Below are positions 26,360-54,046 of a stretch of DNA of 64,000 nucleotides, in pieces. This stretch comes from Ceratorhiza oryzae-sativae (taxonomy: Eukaryota; Basidiomycota; Agaricomycetes; Cantharellales; Ceratobasidiaceae), in the NCBI GenBank assembly GCA_030998015.1, contig JARWMV010000024.1, positions 62,001 through 126,000 of the forward strand, written 5' to 3'. Positions within the stretch are counted from its first letter, which is position 1. Each line of letters starts with the position of its first letter. A program made the translations under genes and the position numbers. The notes beneath the pieces are model-generated. The model was not told where the DNA came from, did not search any database, and saw only the letters and a program-made list of their open reading frames with translations.

Positions 26360-29300
26360 TTTTTTTTAAAAAAAATCAGATTTATTATAGCCACTTCGAG
26401 GCTAGGCCTCATGTCGCGGCTTCTAGCAGAACAGAACACGGAGAGGGGAGGGAGAGATACAACGGGTACTACTTGTCTAAACTCAATACTAACTGCTGTC
26501 ACTAAAATAGACTACTGTAACTAAGTCTGAGACATATGGGGCGGGGCACGAAGAGGAAATGCACAAATTACAAACACAACAGGTCTGGGAAGCGGTGGGA
26601 GCGCCGGACATATTCCAGTAGCGCCGTATGACCAGGAATAGTAGAAACGAGAAAAGAGAGAGAGAGGAAATTGCGCCCTCTGGAGGCCAGCACGTTTTGC
26701 CGGAGCGCGGCAAACTTCGGACACCGAAGTACGAAGTGCATGACCGTTTCTTCCGCTTCGCCGCAGGCCTTGCAAGAAGACGAATCGACGAGGTCGAGCA
26801 AGAAGAGGTGCTTCCCGAGCTGGATATGGCTGGTGGAGAGTCTGAAGAGGAGGCCGATTTGCGCTCGCGACCTTCCAGCCGTGAGCTTCAAGAATTCGGC
26901 TGGGACTACGGTTGGGAGCCTGCTTGATAATTTCTGGCCCGCTGGGTGGGACCCCCAGCCCTGCTCTGCATAGCTTGTGTTCGCCTCCCTGGTAAGGAGT
27001 TTGGCTAGATGTCTCGTAATTCGTTGCCGGTAGGTGCAGAGTGGCTTGGGGATGAGGTCCTGTCTGTATGTCTCGCCTCTCGCTGCCAGTCTAGCTTCTT
27101 TGTCCGCGAGCACGTTGCCTAGGATGTTCTTGTGCGCCGGGCACCACTTCAGGCTGAGTCTCAAGCAATCACTTCTGCGTCGAATCTTCTCCGCAAGCGT
27201 CCTAATAGGGCGAACCAGGGACTTGGGGGCGCCTGAGGCAGCCCCTTCCACACAGGCTATGGCCAGCTGCGAGTCACTATACACCACCGCCTCCTCTATG
27301 ACCCGTAGCCGGTGCACTTGCTGTAGCGCTAGCCAGATGCCTGCAAGTTCGGCCTCTAGTACTGTAACCCGATCTCGGTCTCCTAGCCTAACCCCTGACC
27401 AGGCTCGGGTGCTGTCGTGAACTCTGAGGATCGCTGCCGCTCCGGTTCCCTCCTTACATCTTGTGCCGTCTGCGAAGACTTTGGTTCTGGCGTGGTCTGT
27501 CTGGGTCTCCATGACGGCCGTACTGGCACTGGGGAAGTAGTTTCTTGGGACAGTGAGGGGCAGGATCGGGGAACGCTTGAAGGTCCATTGCTCTACATCG
27601 TAGGGGATGCCTTGCGCGTATCTGAGGATGACATGCAGTGGAGACGGATGAGCTTTTCGATTGACCTGGAGGACGTGATCTATGTCTTTTCGGAGTGGGT
27701 GTCCGTCTGGAGCTGAGATTAGGCGTAACGCTGAGCGCTGGCACACTTCATTTAGGAGGTATCGGATGGGGAGAAGCGAAGCAAACGCGTCGAGGTGTGG
27801 GAGTGGTGTGGATCTCATGGCGCCCAGGATGGTTCGCGCCGCCGCAGACTGAATACCGGACAGGCGATTTGCAAACCCGACCGAGCCAGACGCCCTGGGC
27901 TTGTCGGCTGTAGGGGGCTTGATCGGCGAAAACCAGATATCAGCCGCGTACGTGAATCTCGGGACTGCGACACTGAGATAGAGCTTCCTGACGAGTCTGG
28001 GCGGAGTACCATATGACATACGCGCGATTCTGCCAAGCTGGGAGGTCCACTGGATGCCCTTGGCTAGGGCTTTGGCGCACTGCTCCTTGAATCTGAGCTG
28101 CTGGTCTAGGATCACTCCAAGGAGAGTGTGGTGCGGAACCGCAGGGATGTCCTGCAAGCCTACCGTGAGCTTGGGGGCGGTGATCCTTTTCCTCATGAAA
28201 TGAATAAGCCCAGTCTTGTCCAGCTCGAATGTCGAGTTATGCGACTTAGACCAGTCAAGGGCTCCTCCACGTCTCGTCATGATGTCTAGAAGCTTCGCGT
28301 TGTTGTCCTCCACTGAACGACCGCAGACCAAGAATGTGATATCGTCGATATAAGCAACGCAGAGCTCCTTCTTGGCAGACTTGGCTACCCTGACTAGCGG
28401 CGAGTTGTAAAAGAGGTAGAACACTACTGAAAGGGGGCAGCCCTGGTCGATTCCATTCAGGATGGGGAGCGGGCTCGACTCGTAGTCATCAAAGGAGAGG
28501 CATGTAGTTCGTCCGTCTAACTTGGTGAGCATCCAATTGACATACGTGCGGGGGACTCCGAGTTGCTTCATGTTCTCCGCTAGCCTATACGGGTTTGCGT
28601 GAGGGAAGGCACTTTTGACGTCTAGGAAGAGCGCTGACGCGATTTCGTTCCTAGCCCAGGCATCCTTGATATGCTTGATCAGCAAGTGTAGCACGTCCGT
28701 TGTAGTTCTCCCTGGTCTACCTCCAAAATGGTGCGCCGGAAGCCATCCATGTTTTTCGGTGAGCAAGTTGAGTCTCTTAGCCACGCAGGACGAGAGGATC
28801 TTCCCCACCACGTTTAGTAGTGCAATTGGCCTGTACGCTTTTGCCACCGAGTAGTCCAGTTTTCCTGGCTTCCTGAGCACGACCGTGCGCGAGTGTCTCC
28901 AAGTCGTAGGGTAGAGACCATCCCTCAACGAGGCGACAAAGATTTTGTGCAAAATCGGTGCAATTAGGTCCACCGTCTCGATGTAGACACACGCTGGGAT
29001 GCCGTCTGGGCCTGGTGCTGAGTGCGGTTTCATTTCCAGGATAGCCTCGCGAACTTCCTGGAGGGTGAGCTCCGGGAGATCCTCGACCGGCTTGGTCCTC
29101 GTGGCCGGGGCGTCGCTTGGTAGGGGCGGCTGGGGAAAGAAGTTGTCCAACAAGACTTTGCTCTTAGAATCGTTGTCCCTAGCAATCTCTGTGGTTCCCA
29201 AGGAGGACTGGAACTTTAGATTTGGGATGCGGGCTCTCCCGCCATCTCCCTGTCCCCCACCGACGTATTTGCCTGCAGACCAGATAGTTTCCTCATCGAG

Positions 29301-29580
29301 GCTTTCCAGGTAGTCCTCCCAGTGCTTCTGTTTAGCGTCCCGCTTAGCCTGAGTATAGGAGTTCCGGGTCACCTTGAACAGCGTGTGGATCGGGTCAGAG
29401 GGATTCTTTCTGGCAGCGTATGAGTGTTCGGCCAAATCCTTTACTCAGCGACGGAAGCCCGTGAGCTCTGAGTTCCACCAACGCTTGACCTGTGGGCATA
29501 GGCACAGTTTGGGCACAGCTTTCTCGATGGCTCTCGTGATGGCCGCTTCAACCTCGGATGTTCTCTGATCGAGTGCCTCT
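26360..29580 (-). mobile_element. 5'-truncated non-LTR retrotransposon (LINE, Tad-like)
   Basis: The element lies on the minus strand. Its 3' end is a run of about 10 A (T-run on the plus strand from 26360), directly next to the target duplication. The 5' end at 29580 lies inside ORF2, so the endonuclease and ORF1 are missing, as expected of incomplete reverse transcription. The perfect 14-bp duplication and a nearly open ORF2 indicate a fairly recent insertion. Confidence 0.92.
26568..29435 (-). pseudogene. LINE ORF2 fragment: reverse transcriptase, RNase H, zinc knuckle
   Basis: An open stretch of 955 codons. The RT thumb-palm order is visible: YRPIALLNVVGKILSS, HFGGRPGRTTTD, SALFLDVKSAFPHA, GCPLSVVFYLFYNS and the catalytic box YIDDI. 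Downstream is an RNase H domain with FADGT, EAELAGI, YSDSQLAI and KWCPAHKNILGNVLAD, carrying the acidic residues and the late Asp. A CCHC motif CKACGEAEETVMHFVLRC stands near the C-terminus. The same frame continues upstream past TGA at 29445-29447 (VKRWWNSELTGFRR before the stop) to the truncated 5' end at 29580. The lost endonuclease makes it non-autonomous even if expressed. Confidence 0.92.
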
Positions 29581-44190: not shown

Positions 44191-44229
44191 TTTAGAGTGA
44201 ATATGGCACGGCATCGAGCCCCACCGCAG

Positions 44230-44778
44230 CTGTTCGTACCAGGGAAAAGTGGTCCACCTTCGGGTCGCTGGCAATGCTGACATCATTCTGTACGAGACCA
44301 GTGTTCACGTGGAGCAATCGCGTTGGAATATTTTGCCACTCAATAAGACCACAAATCCCTGGCGGCATCATCGTCGTGGTGGTGCGGCTATATGCTGGCT
44401 TACCAAGCGTCACTCAGTCTCTATCAACTATGGAAGCTGCAACTGTCGCTTGCTGTCATACTGTGAAGGAACTAAAGGCATATTCCAATTCTTTGACGAC
44501 ATTAGTATCAAGTACTCGTCCCCTGTCACCTCACCTAATCTTTTCATTAATCAATCCGCCATCGAATCGCACGCAACACAACGTACGAAATGCGAACTTA
44601 ACATATCGACGTACTATACAACTTCGAGACGAAATACACAAATATACAATCACGTTATTGATCATTCTATCGAAAGAAGACCTCGCCGACGCACTCACCA
44701 AACCGTTGAACTATAACCAACATCGTGACCTTGCCACGCAGATGCGAATGGGTAAACTTTTCCTCGCGCGCTTTTAGC
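44230..44778 (+). pseudogene. Ty1/copia pol C-terminal remnant (RNase H), frameshifted
   Basis: The pieces of a copia RNase H domain are present but split between frames: GGAAICWLTKRHS, then STMEAATVACCHTVKEL (the conserved SxMEAE...A region), FQFFDDISIKYSSPVT, NQSAIES, and finally KEDLADALTKPLNYNQHRD near the C-terminus, a hallmark of copia polyproteins. At least two frameshifts separate them. A polypurine tract AAGGGGAG at 44833-44840 and an LTR follow, as expected at the 3' end of a copia element. Confidence 0.85.
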
Positions 44779-45968: not shown

Positions 45969-47428
45969 TCAAGCGGCTCCTTCGCTATCAACTTCATCTA
46001 AGGTTCGCTTCAGCACCATGATCATGTATGTAGACACTATACACCCACTTCTTGCGCTACCTCACTCGCACTTGGCCGCTCTTCGGGCACGCTGTTCCAA
46101 CATTTCATCAAAAGGGACCAAACTGCGTCCCCACGGGGGTGACAGGGTATGTGGTCAATGGACCGCGTCGGTTTCAGGTTTTTTCCCCCGATAGCGAATA
46201 TGAGCTTCATTTCTACCATGCAGAAGGAAGTCAATCCACTTGGCTGAATTAGCGATGAGACAACAACCACTCAAACACACCATTGCGCTGTTCGGGATAG
46301 GGCACATCCCCAGTCATAATTTCCTGCGAGGGTGATAGTAATGTGCTGAAAAGCGACAGACACGCAATCGTACCAGGATAGTCTACATCGTCCATTAGAG
46401 ATCGATGCGATGTACATCTGAACATCAATCACATACCATGCCAAGTGCATACACGTCAGATTCCTGACTCTGCGTAACTTCATCCGTCAAAATTTCCGGG
46501 GCCTAGGGGGGTGGTATGAGAGCAAATTATCATGCGCCCTACATCACTTGCCGTCCATCGTACTGTGAATCCAGAGGTTTTCGTGGTTTGTGTGAATTGC
46601 AGCTCCCCATACTGAAATACGGCATTTCCAAAGTCTGTAATCATTGGAACCCCCTCATCCGAGACGAGGACATTGACCTAAGTTGTAGATGTGAGTCTGA
46701 TTAAATGGTACTTAAATGAGTCACGCCCACTCCCTTCAGATCCCCATGGACCTAGATTCACGTTGACATGTGAGCAATCCGGCATCGCGTATCGACCGAA
46801 GAAACCAACCATTGGCACATTGTGTATATACTCCAACCCATCGCAAATTTGTGAGCACTGGAATACATACGGGACCGATCAGAAATGGACGCTACGGCAG
46901 AGCATTGGTCCCACCATGTGGTATCGGTCGAGGTCTGGATGTTCTTTGATGTACGCGGGAAGATTGCCATTGTCCATCCAAGATGATACCATCGGATCTG
47001 ATTTTGAAACACTACCAAGCCAAGGAGCGGGAGAACATTGGTGTGATGACATTGCGACCAGTTGTATCTCTCGTGCAGCCCGCTGTGCGGTTGACAATGA
47101 ATGAGAGTGGGCATTTCAAGACTAAAATAGGACTCTCGCCTTGGGAATTCGATCTGGCTCATCATCAGATGTTACAGTAACTCTCAAGGTCTTGATTGCA
47201 ACCAGAGATCCAGATCGGGTTACTGCTGATGAATATCACTGAAGCCACCCCGTGCTATTGCCTGAGAAAATTGTAGCTCCGTGTCAAAACTCTGAGTCAG
47301 ATCGGGGCACCCCAGTTCTGTCAAGGCATCAACAATTGCTGATATGGGCTTCAAGGCGGCTCTATTGTTACATTGTGCATGAGCAGAGGAGTAAAATAAA
47401 ATACCGTATCTTTGCTTATGATAATGCG
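45969..47428 (-). pseudogene. decayed TKL-type protein kinase gene
   Basis: On the minus strand the exons give ALKPISAIVDALTELGCPDL, IARGGFSDIH (glycine loop), SGSLVAIKTLRVT (the VAIK lysine), HTNVLPLLGLVVF, MVSSWMDNGNLPAYIKEHPD, ICDGLEYIHN, VHGDLKG|VNVLVSDEGVP (catalytic loop, HGDLKGxN), ITDFGNAV (DFG-type), GFTVRWTAPEIL, ESDVYALGM, EIMTGDVPYPEQRNGVFEW and CWNSVPEERPSASEVAQEV, the domain end. The stop is TGA at 45969-45971. Introns are short with good sites. Two frame breaks, near 46995 and near 47225, interrupt otherwise good homology, so the gene looks inactivated or mis-sequenced. Immediately upstream lies the intron-like array at 47429-52466. Confidence 0.8.
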
Positions 47429-50400
47429 CTAGACGAGGGAGAGGTGAGATTCGAGTGTAAAGTATGATTAACAGACGGAATCACTCACTGTCTAAAGCGA
47501 AGGCGCATGACAAACAGGGTGAGCATGGCACGAATCGAACCTCGCATCACTCACTCGCTAGACACAAGGAAGAGGACGAGGTGAGTGTATTCCGAATCGC
47601 ATGCTGCATCACTCACTCGCTAGACACAAGGAAGAGGACGAGGTGAGTGTATTCCGAATCGCATGCTGCATCACTCACTTCCTAGACACAAGGAAGAGGA
47701 CGAGGTGAGTGTATTCCGAATCGCATGCTGCATCACTCACGAGCTAGACACAAGGAAGAGGACGAGGTGAGTGTATTCCGAATCGCATGCTGCATCACTC
47801 ACTGCCTAGACACAAGGAAGAGGACGAGGTGAGTGTATTCCGAATCGCATGCTGCATCACTCACTCGCTAGACACAAGGAAGAGGACGAGGTGAGTGTAT
47901 TCCGAATCGCATGCTGCATCACTCACTCCTAGACACAAGGAAGAGGACGAGGTGAGTGTATTCTGAATCGCATGCTGCATCACTCACGCTAGACACAAGG
48001 AAGAGGACGAGGTGAGTGTATTCCGAATCGCATGCTGCATCACTCACTCGCTAGACACAAGGAAGAGGACGAGGTGAGTGTATTCCGAATCGCATGCTGC
48101 ATCACTCACTGCTAGACACAAGGAAGAGGACGAGGTGAGTGTATTCCGAATCGCATGCTGCATCACTACACGAGCTAGACACAAGGAAGAGGACGAGGTG
48201 AGTGTATTCCGAATCGCATGCTGCATCACTCACTCGCTAGACACAAGGAAGAGACGAGGTGAGTGTATTCCGAATCGCATGCTGCATCACTCACTTCCTA
48301 GACACAAGGAAGAGGACGAGGTGAGTGTATTCCGAATCGCATGCTGCATCACTCACTACCTAGACACAAGGAAGAGGACGAGGTGAGTGTATTCCGAATC
48401 GCATGCTGCATCACTCACTTCCTAGACACAAGGAAGAGGACGAGGTGAGTGTATTCCGAATCGCATGCTGCATCACTCACTGCTAGACACAAGGAAGAGG
48501 ACGAGGTGAGTGTATTCCGAATCGCATGCTGCATCACTCACTCCCTAGACACAAGGAAGAGGACGAGGTGAGTGTATTCCGAATCGCATGCTGCATCACT
48601 CACGAACTAGACACAAGGAAGAGGACGAGGTGAGTGTATTCCGAATCGCATGCTGCATCACTCACTACCTAGACACAAGGAAGAGGACGAGGTGAGTGTA
48701 TTCCGAATCGCATGCTGCATCACTCACTGCTAGACACAAGGAAGAGGACGACGGTGAGTGTATTCCGAATCGCATGCTGCATCACTCACTCCTAGACACA
48801 AGGAAGAGGACGAGGTGAGTGTATTCCGAATCGCATGCTGCATCACTCACGAGCTAGACACAAGGAAGAGGACGAGGTGAGTGTATTCCGAATCGCATGC
48901 TGCATCACTCACTTCCTAGACACAAGGAAGAGGACGAGGTGAGTGTATTCCGAATCGCATGCTGCATCACTCACTTCCTAGACACAAGGAAGAGGACGAG
49001 GTGAGTGTATTCCGAATCGCATGCTGCATCACTCACTGCCTAGACACAAGGAAGAGGACGAGGTGAGTGTATTCCGAATCGCATGCTGCATCACTCACTC
49101 GCTAGACACAAGGAAGAGGACGAGGTGAGTGTATTCCGAATCGCATGCTGCATCACTCACTTCCTAGACACAAGGAAGAGGACGAGGTGAGTGTATTCTG
49201 AATCGCATGCTGCATCACTCACGAACTAGACACAAGGAAGAGGACCAGGTGAGTGTATTCCGAATCGCATGCTGCATCACTCACTCGCTAGACACAAGGA
49301 AGAGGACGAGGTGAGTGTATTCCGAATCGCATGCTGCATCACTCACTGCCTAGACACAAGGAAGAGGACGAGGTGAGTGTATTCTGAATCGCATGCTGCA
49401 TCACTCACGAGCTAGACACAAGGAAGAGGACGAGGTGAGTGTATTCCGAATCGCATGCTGCATCACTCACTCGCTAGACACAAGGAAGAGGACGAGGTGA
49501 GTGTATTCTGAATCGCATGCTGCATCACTCACTTCCTAGACACAAGGAAGAGGACGAGGTGAGTGTATTCCGAATCGCATGCTGCATCACTCACGAACTA
49601 GACACAAGGAAGAGGACGAGGTGAGTGTATTCCGAATCGCATGCTGCATCACTCACTTCCTAGACACAAGGAAGAGGACGAGGTGAGTGTATTCCGAATC
49701 GCATGCTGCATCACTCACTCGCTAGACACAAGGAAGAGGACGAGGTGAGTGTATTCTGAATCGCATGCTGCATCACTCACTGCCTAGACACAAGGAAGAG
49801 GACGAGGTGAGTGTATTCCGAATCCCATGCTGCATCACTCTACTAGACACAAGGAAGAGGACGACGTGAGTGTATTCCGAATCGCATGCTGCATCACTCA
49901 CGAACTAGACACAAGGAAGAGGACGAGGTGAGTGTATTCCGAATCGCATGCTGCATCACTCACTCGCTAGACACAAGGAAGAGGACGAGGTGAGTGTATT
50001 CCGAATTGCATGCTGCATCACTCACTTCCTAGACACAAGGAAGAGGACGAGGTGAGTGTATTCCGAATCGCATGCTGCATCACTCACTCGCTAGACACAA
50101 GGAAGAGGACGAGGTGAGTGTATTCCGAATCGCATGCTGCATCACTCACTCGCTAGACACAAGGAAGAGGACGAGGTGAGTGTATTCCGAATCGCATGCT
50201 GCATCACTCACTAGACACAAGGAAGAGGACGAGGTGAGTGTATTCCGAATCGCATGCTGCATCACTCACTCGCTAGACACAAGGAAGAGGACGAGGTGAG
50301 TGTATTCCGAATCGCATGCTGCATCACTCACGAGCTAGACACAAGGAAGAGGACGAGGTGAGTGTATTCCGAATCCCATGCTGCATCACTCACTTCCTAG

Positions 50401-52466
50401 ACACAAGGAAGAGGACGAGGTGAGTGTATTCCGAATCGCATGCTGCATCACTCACCTAGACACAAGGAAGAGGACGAGGTGAGTGTATTCCGAATCGCAT
50501 GCTGCATCACTCACCTAGACACAAGGAAGAGGACGAGGTGAGTGTATTCCGAATCGCATGCTGCATCACTCACTCGCTAGACACAAGGAAGAGGACGAGG
50601 TGAGTGTATTCCGAATCGCATGCTGCATCACTCACTTGCTAGACACAAGGAAGAGGACGAGGTGAGTGTATTCCGAATCGCATGCTGCATCACTCACCCT
50701 AGACACAAGGAAGAGGACGAGGTGAGTGTATTCCGAATCGCATGCTGCATCACTCACCCTAGACACAAGGAAGAGGACGAGGTGAGTGTATTCCGAATCG
50801 CATGCTGCATCACTCACGACTAGACACAAGGAAGAGGACGAGGTGAGTGTATTCCGAATCGCATGCTGCATCACTCACATCCTAGACACAAGGAAGAGGA
50901 CGAGGTGAGTGTATTCCGAATCGCATGCTGCATCACTCACTGCCTAGACACAAGGAAGAGGACGACGTGAGTGTATTCCGAATCGCATGCTGCATCACTC
51001 ACGAGCTAGACACAAGGAAGAGGACGAGGTGAGTGTATTCCGAATCCCATGCTGCATCACTCACTTCCTAGACACAAGGAAGAGGACGAGGTGAGTGTAT
51101 TCCGAATCCCATGCTGCATCACTCACTTCCTAGACACAAGGAAGAGGACGAGGTGAGTGTATTCCGAATCGCATGCTGCATCACTCACTTCCTAGACACA
51201 AGGAAGAGGACGAGGTGAGTGTATTCCGAATCACATGCTGCATCACTCACTCGCTAGACACAAGGAAGAGGACAAGGTGAGTGTATTCCAAATCGCATGC
51301 TGCATCACTCACTTCCTAGACACAAGGAAGAGGATGAGGTGAGTGTATTCCGAATCCCATGCTGCACCACTCACTCGCTAGACACAAGGAAGAGGACAAG
51401 GTGAGTGTATTCCGAATCCCATGCTGCATCACTCACCCACTAGACCCACGGAAGAGGACAAGGTGAGTGTATTCCGAATTGCATGCTGCATCACTCACAT
51501 CCTAGACACAAGGAAGAGGACAGGGTGAGAGTATTCCGAATCGCATGCTGCATCACTCACTTCCTAGACACAAGGAAGAGGACGAGGTGAGTGTATTCCG
51601 AATCGCATGCTGCATCACTCACTTCCTAGACACAAGGAAGAGGACGAGGTGAGTGTATTCCGAATCGCATACTGCATCACTCACTCGCTAGACACAAGGA
51701 CGAGGACAAGGTGAGTGTATTCCGAATCGCATGCTGCATCACTCACAGGCTAGACACAAGGAAGAGGATGAGGTGAGTGTATTCCAAACCCCACGTTGCA
51801 TCACTCACTTCCTAGACACAAGGAAGAGGACGAGGTGAGTGTATTCCGAATCGCATGCTGCACCACTCACTCGCTAGACACAAGGAAGAAGACAAGGTGA
51901 GTGTATTCCAAATCCCATGCTGCATCACTCACCAGCTAGACACAAGGAAGAGGACGAGGTGAGAGTATTCCGAATCGCATGCCGCATCACTCACTTCCTA
52001 GACACAAGGAAGAGAACAAGGTGAGTGTATTCCGAATTGCATGCTGCATCACTCACTTCCTAGACACAAGGAAGAGGACAAGGTGAGTGTATTCCGAATT
52101 GCATGCTGCATCACTCACGAACTAGACACAAGGAAGAGGACGAGGTGAGTGCATTCCGAATCGCATGCTGCATCACTCACTCGCTAGACACAAGGAAGAG
52201 GACAAGGTGAGAGTATTCCGAATCGCATGCTGCATCACTCACTTCCTAGACACAAGGAAGAGGACAAGGTGAGAGTATTCCGAATCGCATGCTGCATCAC
52301 TCACTTCCTAGACACAAGGAAGACGACGAGATGAGTGTATTCCGAATCGCATGCTGCATCACTCACTGCCTAGACACAAGGAAGAGGACGGGGTGAACAT
52401 ATTTTGGATCAGATATTGTTTAGATGATTTAAGCGTATTTATTATCCGAGATATATCCCTACTTAC
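47429..52466 (-). repeat. tandem array of ~79 intron-like ~62-bp units
   Basis: The plus strand repeats CTAGACACAAGGAAGAGGAC, then GAGGTGAGTGTATTCC, GAATCGCATGCTGC and ATCACTCAC (59 nt in all), then 0-3 variable nt. The core runs from about 47558 to 52400, roughly 79 copies by my estimate. On the minus strand each unit starts GTGAGTGATG (a strong 5' splice site), contains ACTCACC (branch-like) 23 nt before the end, then the pyrimidine tract CCTCGTCCTCTTCCTTG and ends TCTAG (3' splice site). That is a 59-nt intron, within the 48-65 nt typical of genes in this window. Two diverged units at the left edge keep these elements. The rightmost half-unit is joined to a normal donor CG|GTAAGT at 52466. 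Copies from 51230 on are more diverged. Confidence 0.9.
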
Positions 52467-52469
52467 CGA

Positions 52470-53126
52470 CTTTAATTGGCACAAATAAGGATCTAGTCAG
52501 AGCGATTCATGCTTTCCGCGCGCCACCCACCATCACTTCGGCAGTATCATCAAATCGGTTTCCAGAGTTCATTTCAGCTGCGAAATGACCTCGCCTTTAA
52601 AATCTAGTGAAATATTTTACAATTGGGCACCCGGGTTTTCGCCAACCCAATTCCACTTGTCAGCTCAGCATACAATGTTCCGAGGTACGTACAGTATCAC
52701 TCGTCGGTCGAAGCTATTAGCTCAATCCACCGAAACCTACGTCAGGACCGTTAGTACAAATGATGTTCCTTTATCGCAGTCGCTTCTCTCAATGTTCGCC
52801 GGTGCGCAAGTGTGGTGGTGGTAGCAGGACAAGGGCAAGTTTAGACGCCCTTCTTATCGCGGCGTTTCAGTCACGAGCCACTTCCGCATTTATCCTCCCT
52901 GATCCACCAATCAGGCTATGCTGCGTTGGAAACAAACACATTGATATCATTTTGTACGACAATGCCTTGCTCCAGTATCCAACTGGTACAAGACAGCAAA
53001 TGAAGAGATACAATAGGACGATAGATACGAATGTGAATTAGATATGATCAATAGCAGACTTTTTCATTAATAAATAAACCCTACTCCCACTATCCTATCC
53101 CGCTCGAGGATTTATCCCGTAAAGCC
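52470..53126. other. intergenic upstream of the array
   Basis: If the kinase gene is real, its 5' exons should lie here on the minus strand, ending at the GTAAGT donor at 52466. I could not identify a convincing exon. No other gene is supported. Confidence 0.35.
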
Positions 53127-54046
53127 TCACTCAAAGTCCATCTCGTTTTCCGGTAGCACCGGCGAAGAGTCCCGCACCACAGGCACGTCAAAGTATCCCA
53201 CGTTCATGCCCGACACTGACACCAACGGACTTCGACCCGGTCGCTTGTTCATATTCACCAACGATAGCTTGTTCACTGCACTCAGTGGCGTAGGTGCCGG
53301 TAGGATGTTCGGAGATGGGGTGAGTGCAGGTGAAAGGTTCATCGGAGAGGGGAAACTCGTGTTCAGGGTCAGAGTCGGGGGAGGAGCAAGTGATTGATAC
53401 GCCATGCTAGGAACAGGGGGCTGCGGCAATGGACTAGTCGGAGGGGGCTTGCGAGCAATCGTGACCTTTCGCGTCCTCCTGCGCCATCACTGTTAGTCAA
53501 TATCTCACATTGACCCATATTCGGAACGCACCTTGCGCTCTCACCGACCATATCAAGTGAGCACGCTCTCCTCTCCTTTCCCGGACTCACGTTCCCGAGT
53601 GCTTGCACCACCCGTCCCGACATGACCGCCGCCCGAGTCGGACTCTTGATCGCCGCTATGGGGTTGTGCGACAGAGTGACCGAGCTCCGCCGCCTGCGCA
53701 GTACCCTTGGTGACGCAGGCGCAGATGCCGACGCAGACGGCGGGCCTGAGCCTTGTGTCCCACTGGCCATGGAGAACGAAGAGAACGTCCTGAGCGCAGC
53801 GAGTTTAGGGCGCCGGGTCGCCGCCGTTGACGAAGACGTAATAGCAGGCGCCAAGAGGACGGCTGAGCCGGTGGACGCCAGGGCAGGACCGCATTCGAAA
53901 GCAGGCGTCTGTGGAGCGGTAGTGATGGGAGTTGGAGTGGTTGATCGGCTCTCGCCGCCAGTTGGGGCTTTTGGTGTGTCCTCCGTCGAGAGAAAGAGAC
54001 CGGTCGCGAACAAGCGCGAGTAACCTGGAGGAGATACAGTCGTCAT
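53127..54046 (-). CDS. Ser/Pro/Ala-rich low-complexity protein
   Basis: Two exons. The start at 54046 (MTTVSPPGYSRLFATGLFLS) is the first ATG of a long open frame; the frame extends upstream to 54082, so the start could be earlier or spliced. Exon 1 is Ser/Thr/Ala/Pro-rich with a basic patch RVLRRRRSSVTLSHNP, a possible kinase target (RRxS), followed by AVMSGRVVQALGNVSPGKE. A short intron (donor AG|GTGCGT) leads to RTRKVTIARKPPPTSPLP and a proline-rich tail ending SSPVLPENEMDFE. Most of it is predicted disordered. A regulatory or cytoskeletal scaffold is possible but not shown. Confidence 0.6.

Follow-up and report, generated by a model that had tools for sequence, protein, structure and literature searches.

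A tandem array of intron-like units with a hypervariable junction at a kinase-like locus of the fungus Ceratorhiza oryzae-sativae

Minisatellites with variant repeats consist of a tandem unit, show local spread of variants and have diverged ends. An array that shares all of these features, with a 62-bp unit in about 78 copies, lies in a 64,000-nt stretch of DNA from the basidiomycete Ceratorhiza oryzae-sativae (NCBI GenBank assembly GCA_030998015.1, contig JARWMV010000024.1, positions 62,001 to 126,000 of the forward strand; this whole stretch is called the window hereafter), but it differs from them in that its variation is focused on three bases at the junction between a splice acceptor and a splice donor. 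On the minus strand of the window, from 47429 to 52466, 78 near-identical cores of 59 nt are arranged in tandem together with two diverged relatives and a half-unit, and the cores read as introns. The array is a real and unusual structure, and we consider it probable, though far from settled, that it is a fungal intronic minisatellite, of which the repeat unit would be a complete U2-type intron module.

What is known of comparable structures? The nearest process is intron gain and multiplication by tandem genomic duplication, for which the available part of the source paper gives 24-bp AGGT repeats in two Schizosaccharomyces genes, potato RdRp and TOUCH3 as examples (PMC4974935). There, the duplication supplies both donor and acceptor, as in the present array, and the fission-yeast introns span two or four copies; these 24-bp repeats are also the nearest array that was found. 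Tandem duplication is an accepted source of introns, but the cases found in that part of the literature have few copies and the fission-yeast units are exonic, whereas the present array holds about 78 complete intron readings and a hypervariable junction. Stwintrons are likewise adjacent fungal intron modules, with sequence-similar copies in Hypoxylon; in the accessible portions of the papers they are nested, so that an internal intron interrupts a splice element of the external one, and similar ones are dispersed (PMC9024468, PMC7138796). The units described here, by contrast, lie head to tail with linkers of 0-3 nt between them, and none interrupts a splice element of another. Introners, or introner-like elements, are near-identical intron copies as here, but those presented in the consulted sections are spread across many genes (PMC9860276, PMC3443670). 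Micro-exon genes of Schistosoma contain series of very short exons with lengths that are mostly divisible by three, as are those of the linkers in our array, but according to the part of the report at hand they have long introns and expressed proteins (PMC10526429), while our short, near-identical intron-like units are known from sequence. Judged by titles or the first lines of abstracts, and with most subscription papers outside the search, no array of tandem complete introns was found in the literature.

Tandem Repeats Finder (TRF) reports the array at 47544-52396 with a period of 62, 78.7 copies and 94% matches, well inside the head-to-tail 10-100 bp unit by which minisatellites are defined. 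If the units are cut at the TCTAG/GTGAGT junction, 79 junctions and 78 consensus-type cores result, and the core is 59 nt long in 73 of the 78. An earlier reading of the window from its letters and open reading frames (the sequence-only reading) had described about 79 tandem minus-strand units reading as complete introns, flanked on the left by two diverged units, and the count of 78 cores plus diverged relatives bears this out (Table 1). The consensus core starts with GTGAGT, has CTCAC 24-28 nt from its end, continues with a pyrimidine-rich stretch and ends in TCTAG. GTGAGT is intact in 75 of 78 cores, CTCAC in 77 and TCTAG in all 78, the 17 bases before the acceptor include 12-14 pyrimidines, and the conserved block of the unit has its boundaries exactly at GT and AG. 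Three units have a damaged or absent donor. GTGAGT, a CTNAY branch-point motif and TCTAG occur all together in 75 of 78 cores; at the level of sequence, therefore, these 75 units have the GT-AG ends, the donor, branch-point and acceptor motifs and the normal spacing of a U2 intron; the sequence-only reading had listed GTGAGT, ACTCACC, a pyrimidine tract and TCTAG. Among 100,000 dinucleotide-shuffled 62-mers, with both strands allowed, 57 gave a complete intron reading (YAG, 0-4 nt, GTRAGT, a correctly spaced CTNAY and no fewer than 12 pyrimidines in 17 bases), a figure that is to be taken as a guide only because the criteria were chosen after the unit had been seen. Six introns read by eye from the chitin deacetylase gene of the window and from three kinase loci are 51, 53, 53, 57, 59 and 80 nt long, so that 59 nt is an ordinary intron size here, again as had been noted before. 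On the plus strand, each unit has by eye GTGAGT and CTAG as complements of the branch point and the acceptor, with no pyrimidine tract before AG. RNA folding allows the donor to pair with the branch-point region, but the stability is no better than that of shuffled sequences.

The most striking variation is found between the cores. The sequence-only reading had touched on gaps of 0-3 nt between the introns, and indeed the linker is 3 nt long at 66 of the 79 junctions, 2 nt at seven, 1 nt at three and 0 nt at three; what comes in addition is its hypervariability. Per-site diversity is 0.57 in linkers and 0.023 in cores, where the most variable stretch of 3 nt reaches 0.11. In units 1-23 the linker diversity is 0.564 against 0.057 in the core, and in units 24-78 it is 0.573 against 0.0059, that is, a difference of about 100-fold. 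Even the 43 of 78 units that have exactly the consensus core carry 14 forms of linker. The commonest of the 79 linkers are GAA (21), CGA (19), GCA (6), TTC (5) and CTC (5, or 6 when the junction before unit 69 is counted); that junction, next to an altered donor, reads CTC in one way of cutting and 4 nt in the other, and no other linker exceeds 3 nt. Of the 65 three-nucleotide linkers in the 78 units, 49 have A as their last base and none has it as its first. The 13 linkers that fall short of 3 nt are confined to units 25-42 (7 of 18) and 59-73 (6 of 15), with zero in the other 45 units. Core indels are present in five units, and in three of them (36, 42 and 69) the indel lies in or right after the first three bases of the donor. 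The three zero-length junctions are back-to-back, and at unit 36 the acceptor and the donor would share a G.

Are the linkers inherited with the cores? Equal rare linkers lie on average 5.6 units apart, compared with 23 after permutation (none of 5000 permutations gave so small a value), and this clustering persists when labels are shuffled among the rare positions only. Units that have a non-CpG core variant in common carry the same linker in seven of eight pairs (P 0.014; the single variant A31T accounts for six of these eight), while for pairs sharing a CpG variant the linker is equal in 18 of 93 against 20.6 expected, as recurrent mutation at CpG would give. Because rare linkers cluster and non-CpG variants share their linkers, linker and core appear to have been copied together, with the linker changing faster or escaping the homogenisation that cleaned the cores. 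The local spread of a minisatellite, in which neighbours share variants, is therefore visible in the rare linkers and the non-CpG variants, the common linkers being without clustering. Copying of the core alone from spliced intron RNA was also considered; the exact ends and the flat linker diversity make it attractive, but the inheritance of linkers weakens it.

Another possibility is that the units were inserted one by one as copies of a mobile intron, an introner, with the linkers as remnants of an exon or as target-site duplications. The exact bounding of the conserved block by GT and AG speaks for this, and so does the prevalence of 3-nt linkers, which is inside the 3-9 bp of target-site duplications given for some introner families in the consulted part of PMC9860276. 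However, searches with the unit sequence find no dispersed copy in the assembly, which comprises 48.8 Mb in 253 contigs. A 29-base pattern with at most three mismatches has 77 matches in the whole assembly, all 77 inside the array, and the reversed control has 0. DNA searches of the assembly with the array and with its left-flank sequence return the contig of the window only; on this contig (201 kb), TRF shows no second comparable array, and a scan for GTRAGT...YAG-(0-4)-GTRAGT has no match beyond the array. Since a single locus is found, the unit does not behave as an introner, for which near-identical copies dispersed over many genes would be expected. The sequence-only reading had set a local array apart from dispersed introners, had proposed a search of the genome for further copies, and had held that the unit, if found elsewhere as an ordinary satellite and combined with a lack of minus-strand transcripts or splice junctions, would speak against it; the 77 matches agree with the first of these, and the searches found no satellite copies elsewhere in the assembly. 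Furthermore, equal neighbouring linkers, which nested target-site duplications predict, are not enriched (lag 1 z -0.57), and such duplications were rejected for this reason. Rare linkers and non-CpG variants travel together, and the joined linkers have a single, non-significant match in the genome (E 2.2); by these two points and by the narrow, unit-locked linker alphabet, independent insertion of introns into a pre-existing exon was rejected as the main reading as well. Intron transposition is thus a very unlikely origin of the array.

If the units are not transposed, where could the founding unit come from? The 3′ half of the unit is similar to the right-hand intron (z 6.6), the 5′ half to the diverged left units 80a (z 4.4) and 80b (z 4.0), with none of 500 shuffles as good in any of the three comparisons; the opposite pairings of halves and flanks give z 1.4-1.7. 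Similarity is seen between units 80a and 80b as well (z 3.4, 2 of 500). The boundaries of the unit can therefore be traced to flanking intron and exon sequence, as expected for intron multiplication, strongly on the right and more weakly on the left. From this comparison the unit looks chimeric and not like a copy of one flanking intron. Thus, of the earlier proposal that one intron of a kinase gene was amplified in tandem, the local, head-to-tail arrangement on the minus strand of a kinase locus stands, and so does the half-unit in a right-hand intron with an ordinary GTAAGT donor (the 97-nt intron 52466-52370 shares the 3′ end of the unit), but the source is probably not one intron, because the 3′ half of the unit points to the right and its 5′ half to the left. 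Most simply, two adjacent introns that by then lay no more than a few bases apart would have undergone unequal exchange; 80a and 80b might, alternatively, be very old units.

Under the intronic minisatellite that we favour, unequal recombination of two neighbouring introns would have fused one half of each, with duplication of the intervening stretch, by which each unit would come to consist of one donor, one branch point, one pyrimidine tract and one acceptor together with a short inter-intron segment. The array would then have grown, as the co-inheritance of linkers supports, by local copying of 62-bp units, core and linker together, and the left two thirds may owe their near-uniform cores to recent spread or homogenisation. 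The three bases at the acceptor/donor junction would have changed far faster, and also shrunk. It might be possible, and we suggest it tentatively, that the unit junction is a fragile point, where breaks in the course of unit exchange would be repaired with small errors.

Several observations weigh against this scheme. First, our confidence in the mechanism of a broken junction is modest; simple error-prone repair does not predict so narrow a linker alphabet as that described above. As for the order of linkers, its autocorrelation over lags 1-39 stays close to that of shuffled orders, the one exception being a low value at lag 22 (z -2.9). The best self-alignment of linkers is equalled by 24 of 150 shuffles, and within a distance of three units the common linker types show no clustering (0.21 against 0.26). 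Because common linkers are without block structure, plain block duplication is disfavoured, and a higher-order block structure of the linkers, which had been a candidate, was rejected for the common types. As for the origin, once the donor is removed the match of the 5′ half falls to z 2.6 (6 of 500 shuffles) with 80a and to z 2.0 (18 of 500) with 80b, so that the left flank is the weaker half of the argument. Finally, the donor, the branch point and the last 16 nt, which make up 27 of the 59 core positions, contain 4 of the 25 substitution types against 11.4 expected (P 0.002), or 4 of 17 against 8.7 (P 0.02) when CpG sites are left out. Fewer substitutions in splice elements hint at a constraint that is unexpected in a purely neutral array. 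No single splice element is significant alone (P 0.06 to 0.36), and the constraint is to be taken as a lead only, because the borders of the elements, though set by intron anatomy, were drawn after the variants had been seen.

The array lies directly upstream of a kinase-like stretch, in which the exon 47220-47426 matches two other loci of the genome (E about 1e-4), the DNA matches a third (73% over 125 bases), and exon-by-exon matches run to about 46040. The matching frame shifts at least three times within exons, once in the interval of about 47226 to 47158, once near 47085/47072 and once near 46996. With several such frame changes inside exons, a function of the encoded protein is unlikely, and the kinase is best regarded as a probable relic. 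Poor sequence is not a likely cause of the frame changes, because in the neighbouring chitin deacetylase gene, which is intact, the two matched stretches read through with stops only at introns. The earlier statement that the left flank leads into a kinase exon therefore holds as far as kinase similarity downstream is concerned, but the gene is broken, and a working kinase gene carrying about 80 extra introns is doubtful for the same three or more frame changes. Being upstream of a decaying kinase gene, the array is most likely neutral.

Could the linkers be codons after all, so that the array is a chain of one-codon micro-exons encoding a charged coiled coil ahead of the kinase? In its favour, 66 of 79 linkers are of 3 nt, no stop codon occurs among the 65 three-nucleotide linkers where 3.1 are expected, and translation of the linkers yields mainly E, R, L, F and A. 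Of the three frames of the joined linkers plus the last exon, one is fully open and, by our own reading, enters the kinase exon in frame; another is open across the linkers but meets a stop in the last exon, and two stops interrupt the remaining one. Yet 13 of the 79 linkers are not 3 nt long, and three units have a damaged or missing donor upstream of a broken kinase. For almost every residue a single codon is used (21 GAA and 0 GAG), which is unlike normal coding sequence, and no heptad signal is seen (P 0.14), by which coiled-coil codons were rejected. We give this chain hardly any credence.

A different view is that the stretch is decayed and untranscribed, an ordinary minisatellite in which the look of an intron is merely inherited from the founding one and splicing is irrelevant now. 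The frame changes of the kinase are in line with it. So are the three CpG sites of the core (positions 18-19, 23-24 and 39-40), where 8 of the 25 substitution types fall and recur with unrelated linkers, as in methylated silent repeats; this recurrence would fit CpG methylation of the repeat. Against it, all splice elements are kept in 75 of 78 units, with the reduced substitution mentioned above. A silent relic is unlikely, although it has more in its favour than transposed introns or coding linkers. An error of assembly or polishing, to which long tandem arrays are prone, is scarcely credible, as variation is packed into three bases per unit beside clean cores and the neighbouring gene is intact.

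What would happen to such an array in the cell? If transcribed, the intronic minisatellite would probably be removed by variable splicing among its many equivalent sites. That up to about 78 adjacent introns of 59 nt are recognised singly in a transcript, with exons of 0-3 nt between them, is improbable; nothing like such a series of introns with codon-sized exons is known to us. The structure would become exceptional if RNA did show splicing of single units: copying and homogenisation would then act on the intron module itself, with freely changing sequence right beyond its exact GT and AG ends. With about 78 potential introns side by side, the locus offers a natural test of the pairing of equivalent sites by the spliceosome, of the use of micro-exons as short as 0-3 nt and of the evolution of a repeat that ends at splice sites. 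The hypervariable triplet demands a mechanism whatever the RNA does.

Table 1. Positions in the window of the array, its parts and its flanks.
Feature	Position	Strand	Basis
Array of 78 intron-like cores with 0-3-nt linkers; units 1-23 diverged, units 24-78 nearly identical	47558..52366	-	
Units 1-24, with the bulk of core differences (46 here, 16 in the other 54 units)	50882..52366	-	
First linker, GCA	52367..52369	-	
Last linker of the consensus array, CGA	47555..47557	-	
Right-hand intron-like segment, 97 nt, GTAAGT...TCTAG, matching the unit's 3′ half over its final ~30 nt	52370..52466	-	
Diverged intron-like unit 80a, 63 nt, with a 5′ half similar to that of the repeat unit	47492..47554	-	
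Linker ACA joining diverged units 80a and 80b	47489..47491	-	
Diverged intron-like unit 80b, 60 nt	47429..47488	-	
Putative 24-nt exon between the array and the intron preceding the kinase exon; position similar in paralogues	47405..47428	-	by eye
Kinase relic, similar exon by exon to three other kinase loci in this genome; frame changes within exons	46040..47348	-	

Pfam had no match at E up to 0.01 to seven small reading frames of the window, Rfam had none at E up to 1 in 46000-53500, and a protein search with the reading frame 48078-48383 of the array had none among 894 candidates at E up to 10. The genome has at least 143 matches to PF07714, many of them with stops in the matched stretch (introns being left in), suggesting a large family with birth and decay of kinase genes. 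Over 81% of its length, the chitin deacetylase reading frame of the window shares 95% identity with Ceratobasidium sp. 428, in line with a Ceratobasidium-like fungus. Farther away, the minus strand at 26568-29444 has an open stretch of 958 amino acids, which by eye resembles a non-LTR (long terminal repeat) retrotransposon polyprotein with reverse transcriptase and RNase H-like parts, and on the plus strand at 44196-44777 there is a fragment that, by eye, is presumably the end of a Copia-type polyprotein.

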